A DNA stretch of 35,944 nucleotides from Bacteroidales bacterium. Its GTDB lineage: Bacteria; Bacteroidota; Bacteroidia; Bacteroidales; Marinilabiliaceae. The notes below the pieces were generated by a model that saw nothing but the letters and a program-made list of their open reading frames with translations, made no database searches and was not told the origin of the DNA. Both the position numbers and the translations under genes were made by a program. The DNA lies in assembly GCA_015061285.1 (NCBI GenBank), contig SUWW01000023.1, positions 1 to 35,944 of the forward strand, written 5' to 3'. Positions 24,699-32,500 of the stretch are shown piece by piece (the first letter of the stretch is position 1; each line of letters opens with the position of its first letter).

Positions 24699-25802
24699 TT
24701 ACAACATTCCTTTAGTGCTGGGTAACTGATAGTTATATATATCGCGACGCACTGCCATTTTTATGCTCTTTGCTAATGCCTTGAAAATGCCTTCAATTTT
24801 GTGATGCTCGTTTTCGCCTTCTGCTTTGATATTCAGATTCATACGAGCAGAATCGCTGAGACTTTTGAAAAAATGGAGAAACATTTCTGTTGGCATATCA
24901 CCAATTTTTTCGCGCTTGAATTCAGCATCGTAAACCAACCAAGGTCTACCGCCAAAATCAAGAGCTACTTGACATAAGCAGTCGTCCATTGGCAAACAGA
25001 AGCCATAGCGTTCTATGCCGCGCTTATCGCCCAAAGCTTGACGAATAGCATCACCAAGAGCTATAGCTGTGTCTTCGATAGTATGATGTTCGTCAACATG
25101 TAGGTCGCCTTTCACTCTGATGGTGAGGTCGGAGCCCGAATGGCGTCCAATTTGTTCGAGCATGTGGTCGAAGAATCCAAGTCCAGTGTTTATGTTGCAT
25201 ACACCAGAGCCATCAAGATTAATACTTACAAATATATCTGTCTCGTTAGTCTTGCGCTCCACTGTGCCAACGCGTTCCCCTGCGTATATAATCTCGCTTA
25301 TTTTATCCCACGAAGCCACTTTGCAACAACGATCTATATTGAGCGGCTCATCGTTTTGGCTAATCAAGAGACCTTTGCAACCAAGGTTTTTAGCAAGTTG
25401 CATATCCGTCATGCGGTCGCCAATGACGTAGGAGTTTTCCAAGTCGTAGTCGCCCGTCATATACTTTGTAAGCATCGCCGTGCCTGGTTTACGCGTTGGC
25501 TTATTGTCGCTCGCATAAGTTTCATCGAAATAGGCATCATCGAACATAATACCCTCATTTGCAAATGTTTGTATCATTTTCGACTCTATTCGATCAAAAA
25601 CATCACGAGGGTAAGCCGATGTACCCAACCCGTCCTGATTCGACACTATAACTAACTCATAATCTGTATGTTTGCGCAAAAAATACAGATTTCTAATTAC
25701 GCCAGGCAAGAACTCCAACTCATCAAGCGTATTAACTTGTTCTGTGATAGGTGGTTCCACTATCAAAGTTCCGTCTCTATCGACAAAGATGGCTCTTTTC
25801 AT
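24699..25802 (-). CDS. hisB: Bifunctional histidinol-phosphatase / imidazoleglycerol-phosphate dehydratase
   Basis: 367 residues, a two-domain fusion as in enterobacteria and Bacteroidota. Residues 1 to about 165 are the HAD-type phosphatase: D8 and D10 in [30 protein letters not shown] and [13 protein letters not shown]. Residues from about 170 are the dehydratase with [14 protein letters not shown], the metal-binding [14 protein letters not shown] and a second metal segment [14 protein letters not shown]. It catalyses steps 6 and 8 of histidine synthesis. It follows hisC by two bases and is the last gene of the operon; hisHAFI are not in this window. Confidence 0.97.
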
Positions 25803-25804
25803 AA

Positions 25805-26839
25805 TTAGAATTTTTTCAACTCGTTAATAATAATATTGTTCTCTTCGGGCGTACCTATAGTTATACGCAAGCAATTTTCACATAATACCACATTATGCCT
25901 ACTACGCACCACACAACCTTTCTCCGCCAATGCTTTATAGATTTTAGGCGCATCGGTAACACGCACAAGCAAAAAATTGGCATCGCTTGGGAAGATATGC
26001 TTCACTACGCTTAATGTCGACAATTCTGCCTGCATCTTAGCTCGCTCTTCGAGTAGTATTTTCACCTGTTCGCGCATCTTCCGCTCGTTACTAATAGCCT
26101 CTAATATAGCTTTTTGCGTAAGTATATTTACATTGTAAGGATACTTAACTTTGTTGAAGAATGCTATTATATCTTCACTCGCAAATGCCATTCCGCAACG
26201 CGCACCCGCCATGCCCCAAGCTTTCGAAAATGTCTGAAGCACAATTAATTGTGGATATTTATCAAGTTCCGTAAGCCACGACTCTTCGCCAGCAAAATCT
26301 TGATATGCTTCATCGATAACAACAATGCCATCGAATGCATCAAGAATCTTCTTTATTTCACTGCGATTCAATAGGTTACCGCTCGGATTGTTAGGCGAAC
26401 ATAACCAAATAACATGAGTATGCGAATCAACAGCATTCAGTACAGTGTCGGCACAAAGCGAAAAATCTTCATTAAGTCGCACCGTGCGATACTCTACATC
26501 GTTGATGTCGGCACAAACGCCATACATACCATACGATGGCGAAATAGCCACAACGTTGTCCACTTTGGGCTCGCAAAATATCCTGTATATCAAATCGATA
26601 GGCTCGTCAGAACCATTACCAAGCATAATTTGCGTTATTCGCACGTTTTTTACACGACTAATCTGCTCTTTCACCGATAGTTGAAGCGGGTCTGGATACC
26701 TATTGAAACCATTCGGAAATGGATTCTCATTGGCATCTACAAAAACGCGCGCTTCACCTTTGAATTCGTCACGAGCGCAACTGTATGGTGCCAACTTCCA
26801 TATATTAGGTCTTACTAAACTTTTCAACTCTTTCATCAT
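25805..26839 (-). CDS. hisC: Histidinol-phosphate aminotransferase
   Basis: 344 residues, a fold-type I PLP enzyme catalysing the seventh step of histidine synthesis. It has the N-terminal [17 protein letters not shown] (substrate loop), [29 protein letters not shown], the PLP-binding lysine K206 in [14 protein letters not shown], and the C-terminal [10 protein letters not shown] with the carboxylate-binding arginine. Two adjacent ATGs (26839, 26836) could serve as start. The gap from hisD is 28 bases and to hisB two bases. Confidence 0.96.
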
Positions 26840-26867
26840 CAGTTGTTTATATATATGTATAAATAAC

Positions 26868-28151
26868 TTATTTCACACTTTCGCGGCGCATCTTCATAGC
26901 CAATCGGTGCGCATCGAGATGCTCGTTTTCGGCCATAATTTCCACTGTACGAGCTATATTACGTATGCCTTCTGGCGTTATCTCTTGATAAGTCATCTTC
27001 TTGCGGAAGCTATCAAGGTTCACACCGCTATAGGCATGAGCGTAGCCACTTGTGGGCAAAGTATGGTTTGTGCCACTTGCATAATCGCCTGCGCTCTCGG
27101 GTGTTAGATGTCCAAGGAATAGCGAACCAGCGTTGCATATTCTATCGGCTATCTTATGTGGCTCTGCGGTCTCTATAATCAAGTGCTCTGGAGCATACTC
27201 ATTTGTAAGATCTATCACCTCATCGAGATTTCTAACCACTATGACACTACTGTGTTCGAGCGACTTAGTCGTCAGTTCAAGACGTGGCAATAGTGCAACT
27301 TGGCGCTCCACTTCAAGCATAACTTTATCGGCCAATTCTTCCGACGATGTTATCAATATTGCCTGACTATCAGCTCCATGTTCGGCTTGCGAAAGCATAT
27401 CGGCAGCCACAAATGCAGCGTTTGCTGTCTCGTCGGCTATCACTTCCACCTCCGATGGACCTGCAGGCATATCTATTGCAACATCACGCAGACTAACTGC
27501 TTGCTTTGCAGCCGTTACAAACTGATTTCCTGGTCCAAAAATCTTATAAACCTTAGGAACCGACTGTGTTCCATAGGCCATAGCACCTATTGCCTGAACG
27601 CCTCCAATCTTGAATATTTTACTTACCCCAGCCACATGAGCTGCATAGACTACAGCTGGGTTAATCTTGCCATCAATAGCAGGCGGCGAGCATAGCACAA
27701 TTTCCTTACATCCAGCTATTTGCGCTGGCACTGCAAGCATAAGTACAGTGCTAAAAAGTGGCGCTGTTCCTCCTGGAATATATAGGCCAACTTTTTGAAT
27801 AGGAACGGCTTTTTGCCAACAGTGCACGCCAGCCATTGTTTCGATGGATGGCAACGGTTGATCTTGAGCAGCATGAAATTTTGCAATATTCTCTTTTGCC
27901 GTAAGTATGGCACGCTTCAGATCGTCACTCACAAGAGTTTCTGCTTCAGCTATTTCGGCGTCACTAACAGCAAGCGATTGAAGAGCCACCTTGTCGAACT
28001 TCAATTCATACTCCTTAACAGCTTCGTCGCCTCGATTGCGCACATCGTCCAAAACGCCACCCACGATAGCCGACAAATCGCCTCTGTCTATATGTGGTCG
28101 CGTTAGAAGCTCTTTCCACTGAGCTTTGCTTGGATATTTTATCAACTTCAT
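26868..28151 (-). CDS. hisD: Histidinol dehydrogenase
   Basis: 427 residues, standard length. It oxidises L-histidinol to L-histidine using NAD and zinc, the last two steps of the pathway. Motifs seen are YIPGGTAPLFSTVLMLAVPA, IFGPGNQFVTAAKQ, MLSQAEHGADSQ (zinc-ligand region), and HTLPTSGYAHAYSGV (active site). The ATG overlaps the hisG stop by one base (TAATG), which suggests coupled translation. Confidence 0.97.
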   Translation of the reverse strand: MKLIKYPSKAQWKELLTRPHIDRGDLSAIVGGVLDDVRNRGDEAVKEYELKFDKVALQSLAVSDAEIAEAETLVSDDLKRAILTAKENIAKFHAAQDQPLPSIETMAGVHCWQKAVPIQKVGLYIPGGTAPLFSTVLMLAVPAQIAGCKEIVLCSPPAIDGKINPAVVYAAHVAGVSKIFKIGGVQAIGAMAYGTQSVPKVYKIFGPGNQFVTAAKQAVSLRDVAIDMPAGPSEVEVIADETANAAFVAADMLSQAEHGADSQAILITSSEELADKVMLEVERQVALLPRLELTTKSLEHSSVIVVRNLDEVIDLTNEYAPEHLIIETAEPHKIADRICNAGSLFLGHLTPESAGDYASGTNHTLPTSGYAHAYSGVNLDSFRKKMTYQEITPEGIRNIARTVEIMAENEHLDAHRLAMKMRRESVK

Positions 28152-29014
28152 TAGAGTATCATTTTTTCTATTGGCATCACCAAAATACTTTCGGCTCCAA
28201 GCTGCTTTAGCTTACCTATTATATCCCAAAAATCCTTCTCTGGCACAACCGAGGCCATCGACGACCAACCTTCTGTTTCGAGGCGAGTGATGGTTGGTGC
28301 TTTCATGCCAGGGAGCAACGTTGTTGCTTCGGAAATCTTTTCGTTAGGTATGTTGAGCACTATATATTTCTTACCCTCCGCATTCTTATATGAATCGAAT
28401 CGGAAGAGTATTTCGTTGAGTATTTCTTGTTTCTCGGCACTAATGTTTTTGTTAGCTATAAGTACAGCTTCACTCTTCATAACCACTTCCACCTCTTTGA
28501 GGTTGTTGCTTACAAGCGTTGCGCCCGAGCTAACAATGTCGAAAATGCTATCGGCCAAACCAATGCCAGGAGCTATCTCCACCGAACCTGTAATTACATG
28601 TATATCAGCCTTCAAACCATTTTTTTCGAGGAAACGTTTCAATATACCAGGATACGAAGTAGCTATCTTTTTGCCATTAAGCCATTTATTCCCAAGTTTA
28701 TTATACTCCTCCAAGTTGCGCTCTGGAATAGCTATTGAGAGACGACATTTGCTAAAGTCGAGACGCTTGATAATTTGCGCATCCTCTTGACGCTCCTCAA
28801 ATTCGTTTTCTCCCACTATACCTACGTCGGCCGTACCTCCTGCAACAGCTTGCGGTATATCGTCGTCGCGAAGGTAGAGTATCTCTACTGGGAAATTCTT
28901 AGCTGGTACAAGCAATGTGCGTTTAGCAGCATCGATCTTAATACTCGATTCTGCCAACATCGTCATTGTCTCTTCGTAAAGGCGGCCTTTGGCCTGAACT
29001 GCAATTCTTAGCAT
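28151..29014 (-). CDS. hisG: ATP phosphoribosyltransferase, long form
   Basis: 287 residues from the ATG at 29014 (MLRIAVQAKGRL). An in-frame ATG at 29038 lies just four bases after the attenuator T-run and gives an N-terminus unlike the family, so 29014 is preferred. It is the first, committed enzyme of histidine synthesis, joining ATP and PRPP, and is usually feedback-inhibited by histidine. Seen: DVGIVGENEFEE, the PRPP-binding region around DSIFDIVSSGATLVSNNL, and a C-terminal part of about 75 residues matching the regulatory domain of long HisG. It lies directly behind the his leader and attenuator, so it is controlled both by transcription attenuation and probably allosterically. Confidence 0.95.
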   Translation of the reverse strand: MLRIAVQAKGRLYEETMTMLAESSIKIDAAKRTLLVPAKNFPVEILYLRDDDIPQAVAGGTADVGIVGENEFEERQEDAQIIKRLDFSKCRLSIAIPERNLEEYNKLGNKWLNGKKIATSYPGILKRFLEKNGLKADIHVITGSVEIAPGIGLADSIFDIVSSGATLVSNNLKEVEVVMKSEAVLIANKNISAEKQEILNEILFRFDSYKNAEGKKYIVLNIPNEKISEATTLLPGMKAPTITRLETEGWSSMASVVPEKDFWDIIGKLKQLGAESILVMPIEKMIL

Positions 29015-29042
29015 AGTATTATTTTTTATTGTTTTCATACAT

Positions 29043-29077
29043 AAAAAAAGAGGCTTGCCCCGCTAAAGGCAAGCCTC
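29043..29077 (-). terminator. his attenuator: intrinsic terminator in the hisG leader
   Basis: On the minus strand GAGGCTTGCC (29077-29068) and GGCAAGCCTC (29059-29050) form a perfect 10-bp stem with an 8-base loop, followed directly by seven T residues (29049-29043). It lies between the histidine-rich leader ORF and hisG, so it would stop transcription before the operon. Its 5' arm can alternatively pair (GGCTTGC, 29075-29069) with GTAGGCC (29120-29114) at the leader stop codon, a plausible antiterminator. Confidence 0.85.
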
Positions 29078-29116
29078 AATGTTCTTTATTTCACCCGTTC
29101 GCACATCAAGACCGGC

Positions 29117-29167
29117 CTACTGTTGTAAGCTATGATGGTGATGATGATGATGAACGTTTAGAATCAT
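29117..29167 (-). CDS. hisL: his operon leader peptide with seven consecutive histidines
   Basis: A 16-codon ORF on the minus strand: M-I-L-N-V, then seven His codons (29152-29132; six CAT and one CAC), then S-L-Q-Q and TAG. It ends 39 bases before the attenuator stem and about 100 bases before hisG. Ribosomes stalling at the His codons when His-tRNA is scarce would leave the leader-stop region free to form the antiterminator. Ribosomes reaching the stop would block it and let the terminator form. This is the classical attenuation logic of enterobacterial hisL, here with an unrelated sequence. The peptide itself probably has no other role. Confidence 0.85.
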   Translation of the reverse strand: MILNVHHHHHHHSLQQ

Positions 29168-29190
29168 ATTTCTTATTCTTTTTTGCGCTG

Positions 29191-29198
29191 CAAATATA
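29191..29198 (-). promoter_or_regulatory. Candidate -7 promoter box of the his operon (TATATTTG)
   Basis: TATATTTG matches the Bacteroidota -7 consensus TAnnTTTG exactly, 23 bases before the leader ATG. The -33 region has only TTG instead of TTTG. One arm of a 10-bp inverted repeat (29212-29221) covers the expected -33 region. Confidence 0.55.
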
Positions 29199-29376
29199 AC
29201 ATTCTTTTGTTTGCACAATCGCACTGTGTAAAATTTATATCATTTGTTTATTTTTCATATCGATTGTGCATTCGACACATCTGATAATCTCTTGCAAAAG
29301 CTCATGAAACTTATCATGCTGGCACATTTCACAATTTTCTATTGTTAAAATTCTTCTTTATACATATCAATATATT

Positions 29377-29384
29377 TAAGTTTG
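29377..29384 (+). promoter_or_regulatory. Candidate -7 promoter box (TAAGTTTG) of the surface protein gene
   Basis: TAAGTTTG matches TAnnTTTG exactly and would give a leader of about 120 bases before the ATG at 29510. It is overlapped by the palindrome AAGTTTGTAAACTT (29378-29391), so a repressor could act there. No clear TTTG is found at -33. Confidence 0.4.
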
Positions 29385-29509
29385 TAAACTTGTTTTATAA
29401 GCGTATACATATACGCAAAAACATATCAATAACATTATAAACAGCTGAGTAACAACACAAACGCACGCCATCAAACAAACGACAAATAATCACACATAAT
29501 AATATTCAT

Positions 29510-32500
29510 ATGAAAAATTTCTTAACACTTTTAGGGCTATTAGTAGTCTTATGCACTACGAAAGCTTACGCAGAAGTCGACAAGACGAGAATTTTCTCTA
29601 CGTCGGAAAATACGCAAGTTGAGTTCGCGCCTTACAACCTTATGGCCGAATGCGAATTTATGACTCCAGAAGGCGAAGAAGATGAAATTCGTGTTGCAAC
29701 AGAATTTTTGCTTTCGGAGAATTACGAGGAATTCAATGATGCGGCAACTTCTTTCCCTTGGGGCTGCAATAAACCGCGAAATTCAGTAAACGGCATTTCT
29801 GTCGAAGATACCGAATACTTCGACGCTGCTACCACTCTCAACGAAATTAATTCTGATTTCGGTGGCGATTGGGGCGAACAAGTTGATTACGACTACATTA
29901 ACTCTTGGCGTACACCTACTTACGAGGAGCTTGATTACATCCTCAACAAACGCCCTAATGCAGCACAACGACGCTACAACCTTTATTTATGGAATGATGG
30001 GTTTAAGGGTCTTATGCTTTTACCTGATAACCCAAGCGAAAATTTGCAAGCATTGATTAATCAAAGCAATGTTTTGAATGGCAACGACTTGCATATTGGC
30101 GCCGACTCTTCAGCATATTTTCAAGAAGAGGGTGCCATTATCCTCTCGTACGAAAATCATGGAGGCGACAACATTGCAGAATATTACTGGACTGCAACAG
30201 GTTACAACGTAGAAGAAGGTATTGGTAACGCTCCACACGAAACGGCTATGGCTTTATCTATAAAAATGGACGAAGAAAATGGTCCTCAAATCGATTTTGT
30301 AAATATTGAACGTATACAATCGGCAAAAGTTCGTTTAGTGCGTTCGGCTTATAAAGTCACATTAGTGCCTAACGTTCCTGAGCGAGGCGATACTGCCGTT
30401 GGCTACTCGCGTGGTATCGAGGATGTAGTATATATTGATGCAGCACCAAAAGATGGTTTTGAATATTATCACTCATACGATTGTTCGAATTGGGGCTACG
30501 CTAATGAGAATTACCTCCATAAAGTTGGTATTCGCTTAGATGGCGCAGAAAGCGATACTACAATTACCGCATTCTATCGTAGCACAAATCAAATTACACT
30601 GCGTGTAGAGACCGAAGAAATCTTCCAAGATTCGAATGTCCAAATTCAAGCAACCGATGAATTAGGTATAGCAACGTGGGACTACATTTATGACACTGGT
30701 TATACAAGCGTTAAGTCAGGAGAATGGACAAATTATGACTATTTCAACGAAAATGTAGAGAACCCAGACATGTATCATTGCTATGTTAAGTATGGCGTAG
30801 GCGATGTTGTCAATTTGCATACACCAGCAACCATTGATATGGAAGTTGAAGTCGAATCAGGTCAAGGAGCAGATGGCGGACAAATCTTCGAAAGAAAAAC
30901 CGTCACATACGTATTCGACAAATGGGTTGCAACACTTGCTGGCGAAGATTACATAACTGCCGAACAAGCTGCCGACACCATTCTCACATTCACCGTAACT
31001 ATTCCAGAAGCCACTCCAGAAGTATTGGATTTGGTTGTTACTCCACTATACGTACTAAAACAAGAGATAAAATCAATAGACGAACTTGTAGCAATCACAA
31101 GTGGCTTAAACGGCTATGCTAGCGACGAAGAAAACAACTCTTTGGTTGAACTCTCCGACGTCATCACCACAAACAACAATGTGGCCGAAATGACAACAAA
31201 CGACCTCTATGATAAAGAAGATTCAGAATTGGCCGAGCTACCTAAATTGAGCACCATAACGGGTAAGTTCACTGGTCAATTCATTGCATCAGAAGCCACC
31301 ATCAAAGATGTGCTTGTACAAATGTCGGGCAGCCTCTTCGAAAACATCGACGCAGAAGCTACTGTTCAAGACCTCATATTCGACAATAGTGCTATATACA
31401 TAACCGAACAATCCAACAATTGGAAGATTAGCGAAGATGGCGACACACTATTCATTTCGCTTCTTGCCGAAGAAGTAGGTGGCATCGTTGATGGCTTCGC
31501 TCTAACTGGTAGAGTGATTATATGTGATGCCCTTCAAAACCAGTTCTCTGGCGAAAACAAGCACATAATACTGAATATCATAGGCGAACTGAAAGAAGGT
31601 GCTTCTGTAAATGGCTTCTTCTTCGACTACGAAAAACTTACCGACAACAAGGCTGTTCGCGTACGCGAAGTTCAACCTATTCGTATGGACAATGGTAGCT
31701 CGGGCGGAAGTTGCAAAATGGCATCTACCTATTCAGATTTCGGCGTGAAGAAGGTGGTTCTTGACTACAACTACACTGAGGAAGAACTCACAAAGAGCAC
31801 TCGCACATTCACTGCAGAAGAATTCGCAAGTGGTGCTGTTGCTTATTGGCTCAACTATAGCGGTCCTGGCTACACTGGCGACTACACTGCTAAATGGACT
31901 CAAGGTGCTAAATATCCTGTACTCGCCAAGTCGGCTGATAACGCTCTCTACGGCATCAACTATACGTTCAATGGCACTGGCTACGAAGACTACATCACTG
32001 CTTTGCCTAAGTTCGCTAATGCTGGTTCTACCGTAACTATAGAATACACCCAAAAGCCAACTTCAATTCGTTTCGATGGCAAAGAACTCGAACTTGGCGA
32101 AACAAGTGTAAGCTTCACAATGCCAGCTGCTAATAAGTCGGTTGTCATTACATATCCAACTGCTACGACCTATATAGTAAAATTCCAGACTGCCAATGGC
32201 GTCACCATCAAGGAAGAAATTGCTGATGTTACCGAAGGCGAAACTTATACCGCATCTGAGTCGCAGTTGGCTAACTTCGAAAAAGATGGCGCTACATATA
32301 AGTACGTTTCAGGCAACGAAGAGAAGGTAGCTGTAAAAGAGGCTTCTCAGAATGTAATTTCTCTCATATTCGAGTCTGTAGTTACTGCCGTTAGCAACAT
32401 CAAAGCCGATCAGACTAACGATGGTTGCATATACGATCTCCGTGGTGTGAAAATAACCAACCCATCACGCGGCATATATATACAAAACGGAAAACTTATT

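Follow-up and report, generated by a model that had tools for sequence, protein, structure and literature searches.

A probable histidine-sensing transcription attenuator upstream of the hisGDCB operon in a Bacteroidales genome

The window analysed here, a stretch of 35,944 nucleotides from a Bacteroidales assembly of 3.55 Mb in 25 contigs, carries on its minus strand hisG followed by hisD, hisC and a bifunctional hisB, all of which were recognised by profile matches. The first gene of the operon, hisG (28151 to 29014, minus strand), encodes ATP phosphoribosyltransferase (TIGR00070, 183.9 bits against a cut-off of 75.75), and hisD, hisC and hisB occupy positions 24699 to 28151 on the same strand (TIGR00069, TIGR01141 and NF003937, each above its curated cut-off). 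The best two named hisG relatives of the window belonged to uncultured Bacteroidales from yak and horse. The longest hisG open reading frame (ORF) opens at the ATG at 29038 (29036-29038); sequence comparison suggests that the true start is probably the ATG at 29014, since the upstream ATG of L025, a locus from the same genus, meets a stop after four codons, and since the HisG proteins of relatives begin M(L)LRIA or similar. The gene upstream of the hisG leader is divergent, lying on the plus strand at 29510. The interval between the two therefore forms a divergent promoter region, in which a terminator pointing towards hisG can act only on the hisG transcript.

Directly upstream of hisG, as the original prediction had claimed, lies a leader ORF of 16 codons, MILNVHHHHHHHSLQQ, which was read directly at 29117 to 29167 on the minus strand with its ATG at 29167 and a TAG stop. 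Seven of the 16 codons specify histidine, the product amino acid, and these seven control codons are consecutive (CAT CAT CAT CAT CAC CAT CAT, 29132 to 29152, minus strand). Comparison of the window leader with that of L025 revealed four synonymous and no non-synonymous codon changes; four other comparable leader pairs had a total of seven synonymous and nine non-synonymous changes. The anatomy of the leaders was analysed in a set of 52 leader-terminator pairs. CAT and CAC were mixed in 43 of these 52 leaders, which indicates that the His runs are not plain DNA repeats, and histidine was encoded 273 times in the leader ORF frame, compared with 39 and 11 times in the other two frames.

An exact TAnnTTTG box, TATATTTG, which we take to be a Bacteroidota-type promoter element, was read directly at 29191 to 29198 on the minus strand, 23 bases before the leader ATG and thus at the distance given earlier. 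In 44 of the 52 leaders, compared with 87 of 2600 shuffles, such an exact box ended 10 to 50 nt before the ATG, and in 35 of the 44 boxed leaders the distance was 18 to 26 nt. These data place the transcription start most likely upstream of the leader ORF rather than downstream of it, the latter being a position that the original prediction had named as evidence against itself. A TTG was present 22 to 23 nt upstream of the box in 36 of the 44 boxed leaders, so that the spacing in the window, where a TTG at 29218-29216 lies 20 nt upstream of the first base of the box, is atypical. The region upstream of the box is overlapped by a perfect 10-bp inverted repeat (TGCACAATCG and CGATTGTGCA, at 29212-29221 and 29261-29270 with 39 nt between them), which is possibly a candidate operator.

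Between the leader ORF and hisG, a terminator scan detected an intrinsic terminator at 29043 to 29077 on the minus strand, with a stem at 29077-29050, a loop of 4 nt and a seven-U tail at 29049-29043; it was the strongest terminator detected in positions 28000 to 30500. Where a stem of 10 bp followed by seven U residues had been described before, the scan gave 12 pairs, of which 10 form a perfect inverted repeat. The 5' strand of this terminator also takes part in a second, mutually exclusive helix, in which an antiterminator strand (segment 2, AGGCCGGTCTTGATGT, 29103 to 29118, minus strand) pairs with 29082-29067. The latter strand (segment 3, ACATTGAGGCTTGCCT, 29067 to 29082, minus strand) was found to be common to antiterminator and terminator both by folding and in the family alignment. 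The antiterminator, 29118-29103/29082-29067, has 15 pairs and one mismatch. The pairing of GTAGGCC with GGCTTGC that was proposed originally does exist (-8.8 kcal/mol), but it is not the best available; the predicted helix has 15 pairs rather than 7. At the place that matches segment 2 the family consensus is near CGGTRGGC, which is the core of the antiterminator strand in the family. When the search was confined to the terminator arm, comparison of the window duplex with shuffled spacers gave a z of only -1.5 and a p of 0.07. A protector hairpin, GCTTAC (29130-29125) with GTAGGC (29120-29115), spanning 29115 to 29130 on the minus strand, was present in the minimum-energy folds of the window computed without a ribosome, in which the His codons also paired further downstream.

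The leader was then folded with and without a ribosome footprint, the check that had accompanied the original prediction, on the assumption that a ribosome whose A site holds the last His codon shields approximately 10 nt past that codon; coverage beyond the codon is given as approximately 12 nt in the available part of one published account (PMC4833913). The antiterminator index was defined as the expected pairs divided by the pairs of the best duplex; it may slightly exceed 1, and high values are partly built in, segment 2 having been chosen as the best duplex. In the window the index was 0.94-0.99 with codons 4 to 13 in the A site, 0.04 with codon 16 and 0 at the stop codon. Without a ribosome it was 0.00, the protector fold replacing the helix. 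The antiterminator helix was part of the minimum-energy fold of the RNA left free by a ribosome at His codon 6 or 12, the first and the last of the run (-18.9 and -17.8 kcal/mol, respectively), and was gone from the window folds in which the stop codon occupied the A site. The predicted switch was thus obtained in these models: with the assumed footprint, a ribosome on the His codons leaves the antiterminator strand free and one at the stop codon masks it. Once the RNA extended through the whole U-run, the minimum-energy fold contained the terminator hairpin for all ribosome positions tried, as expected of a switch that is timed during transcription. Timing-based switching of this kind is established for trp and his attenuators.

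On the sequence, the modelled folds and the comparative results given below, we consider the region, with a probability of roughly 0.92, to be a transcription attenuator through which a translating ribosome senses histidine and controls the hisGDCB operon. Transcription would begin a little ahead of the leader ORF. Under a shortage of charged tRNA-His, the ribosome would slow on the seven His codons with its leading edge just short of segment 2, which would pair with segment 3 before segment 4 is made; no terminator would then form, and RNA polymerase would enter hisG. When charged tRNA-His is plentiful, the ribosome would reach the stop codon and mask segment 2, segments 3 and 4 would form the terminator and transcription would end. 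If the leader were not translated, the protector hairpin seen in the window sequence would sequester segment 2, again leading to termination. Control might instead depend on coupled translation, or on reinitiation after the leader ORF, and the terminator play a secondary part; in the portion of the literature available to us, the frequency of leader genes in Bacteroidetes peaks 11 to 14 bp before the structural gene, and this peak is taken as a sign of reinitiation (PMC4833913). In the window, however, the leader stop lies approximately 100 nt from the hisG start with a strong terminator between them, and we regard control of this type as very improbable.

The conservation of a His run and terminator upstream of hisG, on which the original prediction had been made to depend, was observed in many Bacteroidales and also, outside their class, in some other genomes. 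A hisG gene was present in 35 of 41 related genomes; 30 of these loci were read, and in 24 of the 30, window included, a His-rich leader ORF was present within 420 nt of hisG. The 30 read loci together with 80 named loci made up a set of 110 (L001-L110), in which a strict detector found a His-rich ORF plus terminator at 46 loci, a count taken before any thinning of a set that contains some duplicates as well as the window itself (L029); L026 and L032 look like one genome, and L033 and L034 share one leader. The same detector gave no hit in 2200 dinucleotide shuffles, in 110 reverse strands or in 1424 other stretches; the result for shuffles and reverse strands indicates that the combination of ORF and terminator is far from chance. 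Among the named carriers are loci of Phocaeicola, Bacteroides, Paraprevotella, Parabacteroides, Dysgonomonas and Maribellus, one of them being that of Bacteroides propionicigenes NSJ-90 (L048). In a sample of the phylum, 14 of 30 hisG loci passed a looser ORF-plus-terminator test; these 30 were the best-scoring hisG matches rather than a random draw, two were from the order of the window, and the hisG start was assumed to be base 1501 in L161-L190.

The strict detector failed at 64 of the 110 hisG loci, some of them from the same genus as the window, which suggests that the attenuator has often been lost. Of the 30 loci with Prevotella or Prevotellaceae in their titles, 29 failed by a count made by eye; as a rule these had a promoter-like box shortly before hisG. 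Ten loci of the same genus were compared in addition to the window; the his attenuator was not found at four of them (L023, L026, L027 and L030), and these four had either a short promoter-to-hisG region or a hisG directly behind another gene. Some failures, among them L017, L054 and L035, represented leaders that are degenerate or displaced; at L035 the leader precedes an extra ORF. No T-run of the kind sought was present at L024.

An alignment of 41 leaders was derived from the 52 by removing one duplicate, dropping eight others and then excluding L021 and L056; most of the 11 leaders left out had an odd or weak fit, an exclusion that favours the model. In this alignment the terminator was conserved, with 92.9% of cells paired compared with at most 59.8% when slid by 1 to 3 columns; 10 of its 12 pairs were changed on both sides across the 41 sequences, and it beat every shuffle on all five measures. 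The antiterminator was also conserved (85.5% of cells paired, at most 51.5% when slid by 1 to 3 columns) and beat every shuffle on cells paired, cells with a double change and covariation score. Its further pair types were matched by 13 of 500 shuffles and its double-change pairs, 3 of 10, by 272 of 500, its covariation being weaker than that of the terminator.

The position of the antiterminator strand relative to the His codons was nearly constant. In 39 of 40 leaders it began 12 to 19 nt past the last His codon (sd 2.8), a count made on those pairs whose duplex was at least as stable as -12 kcal/mol, which 12 of the 52 leaders did not reach; in shuffled spacers the start fell in this range in 744 of 4000. 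Relative to the stop codon, the start varied from -23 to +8 (sd 6.7). The original prediction placed the antiterminator exactly at the leader stop codon; across relatives the position follows the His run and not the stop codon. Given a coverage of approximately 10 nt, a spacing of 12 to 19 nt means that segment 2 starts just past the leading edge of the ribosome. The mean index was 0.92-0.96 for A-site positions between the sixth codon ahead of the last His codon and the first codon past it, and was 0.42 three codons past the last His codon, 0.17 four codons past it and 0.07 at the stop codon. Without a ribosome the mean over 40 leaders was 0.45, the folds being mixed and the protector hairpin not being predicted in every relative.

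This spacing bears on the idea that the system is a riboswitch, a T-box or a protein-controlled attenuator, in which histidine or tRNA would be sensed by the RNA itself or by a protein instead of by the ribosome. A terminator/antiterminator pair would look alike in such a system, and the inverted repeat at 29212-29221/29261-29270 could be a protein site, but the position of segment 2 follows the His codons and no such repeat was seen by eye in L025, which is from the same genus and has an identical leader peptide. Furthermore, no Rfam family matched at its gathering score in the window or in 20 related loci. For the T-box there was neither a gathering match nor a place among the nine relaxed matches to 28950-29520, and the region was not assigned to that family. 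Thr_leader (26.7 bits, threshold 55), Phe_leader and His_leader appeared among the relaxed matches, all of them below threshold, and were rejected as evidence of membership. Sensing by an RNA or a protein thus appears extremely unlikely.

A model, R1, was built from the 41 leaders and searched against 149 whole genomes of the order. The hisG family was searched in a sample of the same size and handles, which gave one hisG place per genome in 75 genomes; three further partial hisG matches were left out of this comparison. The R1 figures for the order rest on the best 89 of the matches listed, and by eye the weaker listed ones add none at hisG. Within these 89, all 38 matches of at least 44 bits were within 322 nt upstream of hisG, and 45 of the 47 matches of at least 40 bits were upstream of hisG within 700 nt. 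An R1 match no more than 700 nt upstream of hisG and on the same strand was present in 48 of the 75 hisG genomes on the same best 89 matches; the remaining 27 had no R1 match among the best 89 listed. The 74 genomes without a hisG match had no R1 match of at least 40 bits among the best 89 listed. In the phylum sample, R1 matched 23 of 296 genomes at an E of 1e-7, and all 18 matches for which the hisG place was known lay 9 to 222 nt upstream of it on the same strand, two of them in genomes outside the class of the window. Thirteen R1 matches away from hisG were read: one was a Trp-run leader and one an Ile/Leu-rich leader, both before pathway genes, and the other eleven had no single-amino-acid-run leader, several resembling the ends of protein genes before an ordinary terminator.

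Leaders of other pathways were present in the genome of the window and in other Bacteroidales. In the former, at L194 on contig C23, a Trp leader with three Trp codons, MYNNIWWWRKSYFQSRR, and a strong terminator lie directly before trpE; no such leader was seen ahead of either of the two best leuA-family matches in this genome. In other Bacteroidales, at L144 and L153, a Trp-run leader, MQLFSNIWWWQSLIIFVERSY, precedes an ORF resembling anthranilate synthase, and an Ile/Leu-rich leader precedes one resembling leuA (2-isopropylmalate synthase), both ORFs being named from their translations. Because of the Trp leader before trpE and the Trp- and Ile/Leu-rich leaders of relatives, attenuation looks like a general habit in these bacteria and not a single case.

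The specificity of R1 and the leaders of other pathways also bear on a simpler account, namely a constitutive partial terminator or RNA processing site beside an unrelated small gene, with the His run belonging to a metal-binding peptide and not to a sensor. His-rich small proteins do exist. Against this account, among the best 89 matches listed the 38 best in 149 genomes were all just upstream of hisG, and the residue that is repeated in the leader tracks the pathway, from His before hisG to Trp before trpE in the same genome and Trp and Ile/Leu in relatives. We therefore consider it very improbable and retain ribosome-mediated attenuation as the preferred reading.

Two His leaders and two terminators were found in series before one hisG at L020, L003, L154, L156 and L157 (L155 is the same genome as L003), and R1 detected both tandem units in 4 of the 48 genomes. 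At L020 an exact TAnnTTTG box was present before the first unit and none before the second, which fits one promoter serving both units; L154-L157 had no exact box at either unit. Two R1 matches (48.7 and 29.2 bits) were also observed at L158, where the leaders were His-poor, and at L159 a His leader and terminator preceded a hisG match of 62 profile positions near a contig end.

There is, in our estimation, an even chance that ribosome-mediated attenuation is old and phylum-wide for the his operons of Bacteroidota, with trp and leu counterparts and, in some lineages, two His attenuators in series. If this is true, ribosomes would closely trail RNA polymerase in Bacteroidota, at least in leaders, and this coupling would hold despite promoters and start signals unlike those of E. 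coli; tandem His attenuators that respond to the same signal would multiply the fold of control. Because the mechanism needs coupled transcription and translation, the leader offers a sequence-defined test of such coupling in this phylum. It also represents an RNA family for which Rfam gave no match at its thresholds, either in the window or in 20 relatives, and with it a phylum in which such control is scarcely described in searchable papers gains a his attenuator that is well supported and widely conserved.

Bacteroidetes/Chlorobi were reportedly among the groups for which Vitreschak et al. listed candidate amino-acid attenuators in 2004. No description of a His leader before hisG in Bacteroidales was found in the titles, abstracts and passages returned by a literature search that covered few subscription journals. 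Prior notices of such leaders in Bacteroidota do exist in the accessible text of two papers (PMC9723704, PMC7366714). In Flavobacterium psychrophilum, strong clues for leader-peptide attenuation before amino-acid operons are reported, and a 5' element of hisG is named that has no Rfam match; this element is from the same phylum and precedes the same gene, but a His leader is not spelled out in the part of the paper available (PMC9723704). In Bacteroides thetaiotaomicron, which is of the same order, small ORFs in long 5' UTRs are described as reminiscent of attenuation, and a term search of the main text returned neither hisG nor histidine (PMC7366714). A 2021 survey of his genes in the same superphylum uses 'attenuation' once, for enterobacteria, and 'leader' never, as judged by a term search (PMC8305728). 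The Bacteroid-trp motif (RF01692), presented in the available text of Weinberg et al. as a candidate cis-regulatory RNA of Bacteroidetes (PMC2864571), did not match the his leader at either the gathering or the relaxed threshold, and the leader was not assigned to it.

Outside the phylum, His leaders are described in Firmicutes before hisZ/hisS in bacilli and before the his operons of the B. cereus group, Eubacteriales and Erysipelotrichales; to judge from the accessible descriptions, they resemble the present leader in having a short ORF with His codons, a terminator and an antiterminator before his genes, but belong to another phylum (PMC2965389, PMC9413887). Tandem attenuators are known from mgtCBR of Salmonella, where, as in the tandem relatives described here, two leader ORFs stand in series; the two mgtCBR leaders respond to different signals according to the text available (PMC3641672), whereas both leaders of the tandem relatives are His-rich. 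The closest parallel is with hisL of E. coli K-12, which likewise has a 16-residue leader peptide with seven consecutive His codons and a U-run terminator, with hisG next. The original prediction suggested that the leader looks unrelated to enterobacterial hisL and may be independently evolved. The window scored 18.2 bits against Rfam RF00514 His_leader (gathering score 49, E 1.6), below membership of that family, yet R1 scored 27.4 bits on the E. coli hisL region, which could be explained by the His codons and terminator alone; the leader may thus reflect either convergence or common descent. The layouts differ: by the method used for the relatives, the best partner of the terminator strand in E. 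coli starts 42 nt past the last His codon, compared with 12 to 19 nt in 39 of 40 Bacteroidales leaders. An extra hairpin is present in the his leader of E. coli and Salmonella in the published description as available (PMC1183508), and the Bacteroidales layout is the simpler four-segment one. Most likely, then, the attenuator is classical in kind, simpler in layout than that of the E. coli his operon and below the Rfam thresholds.
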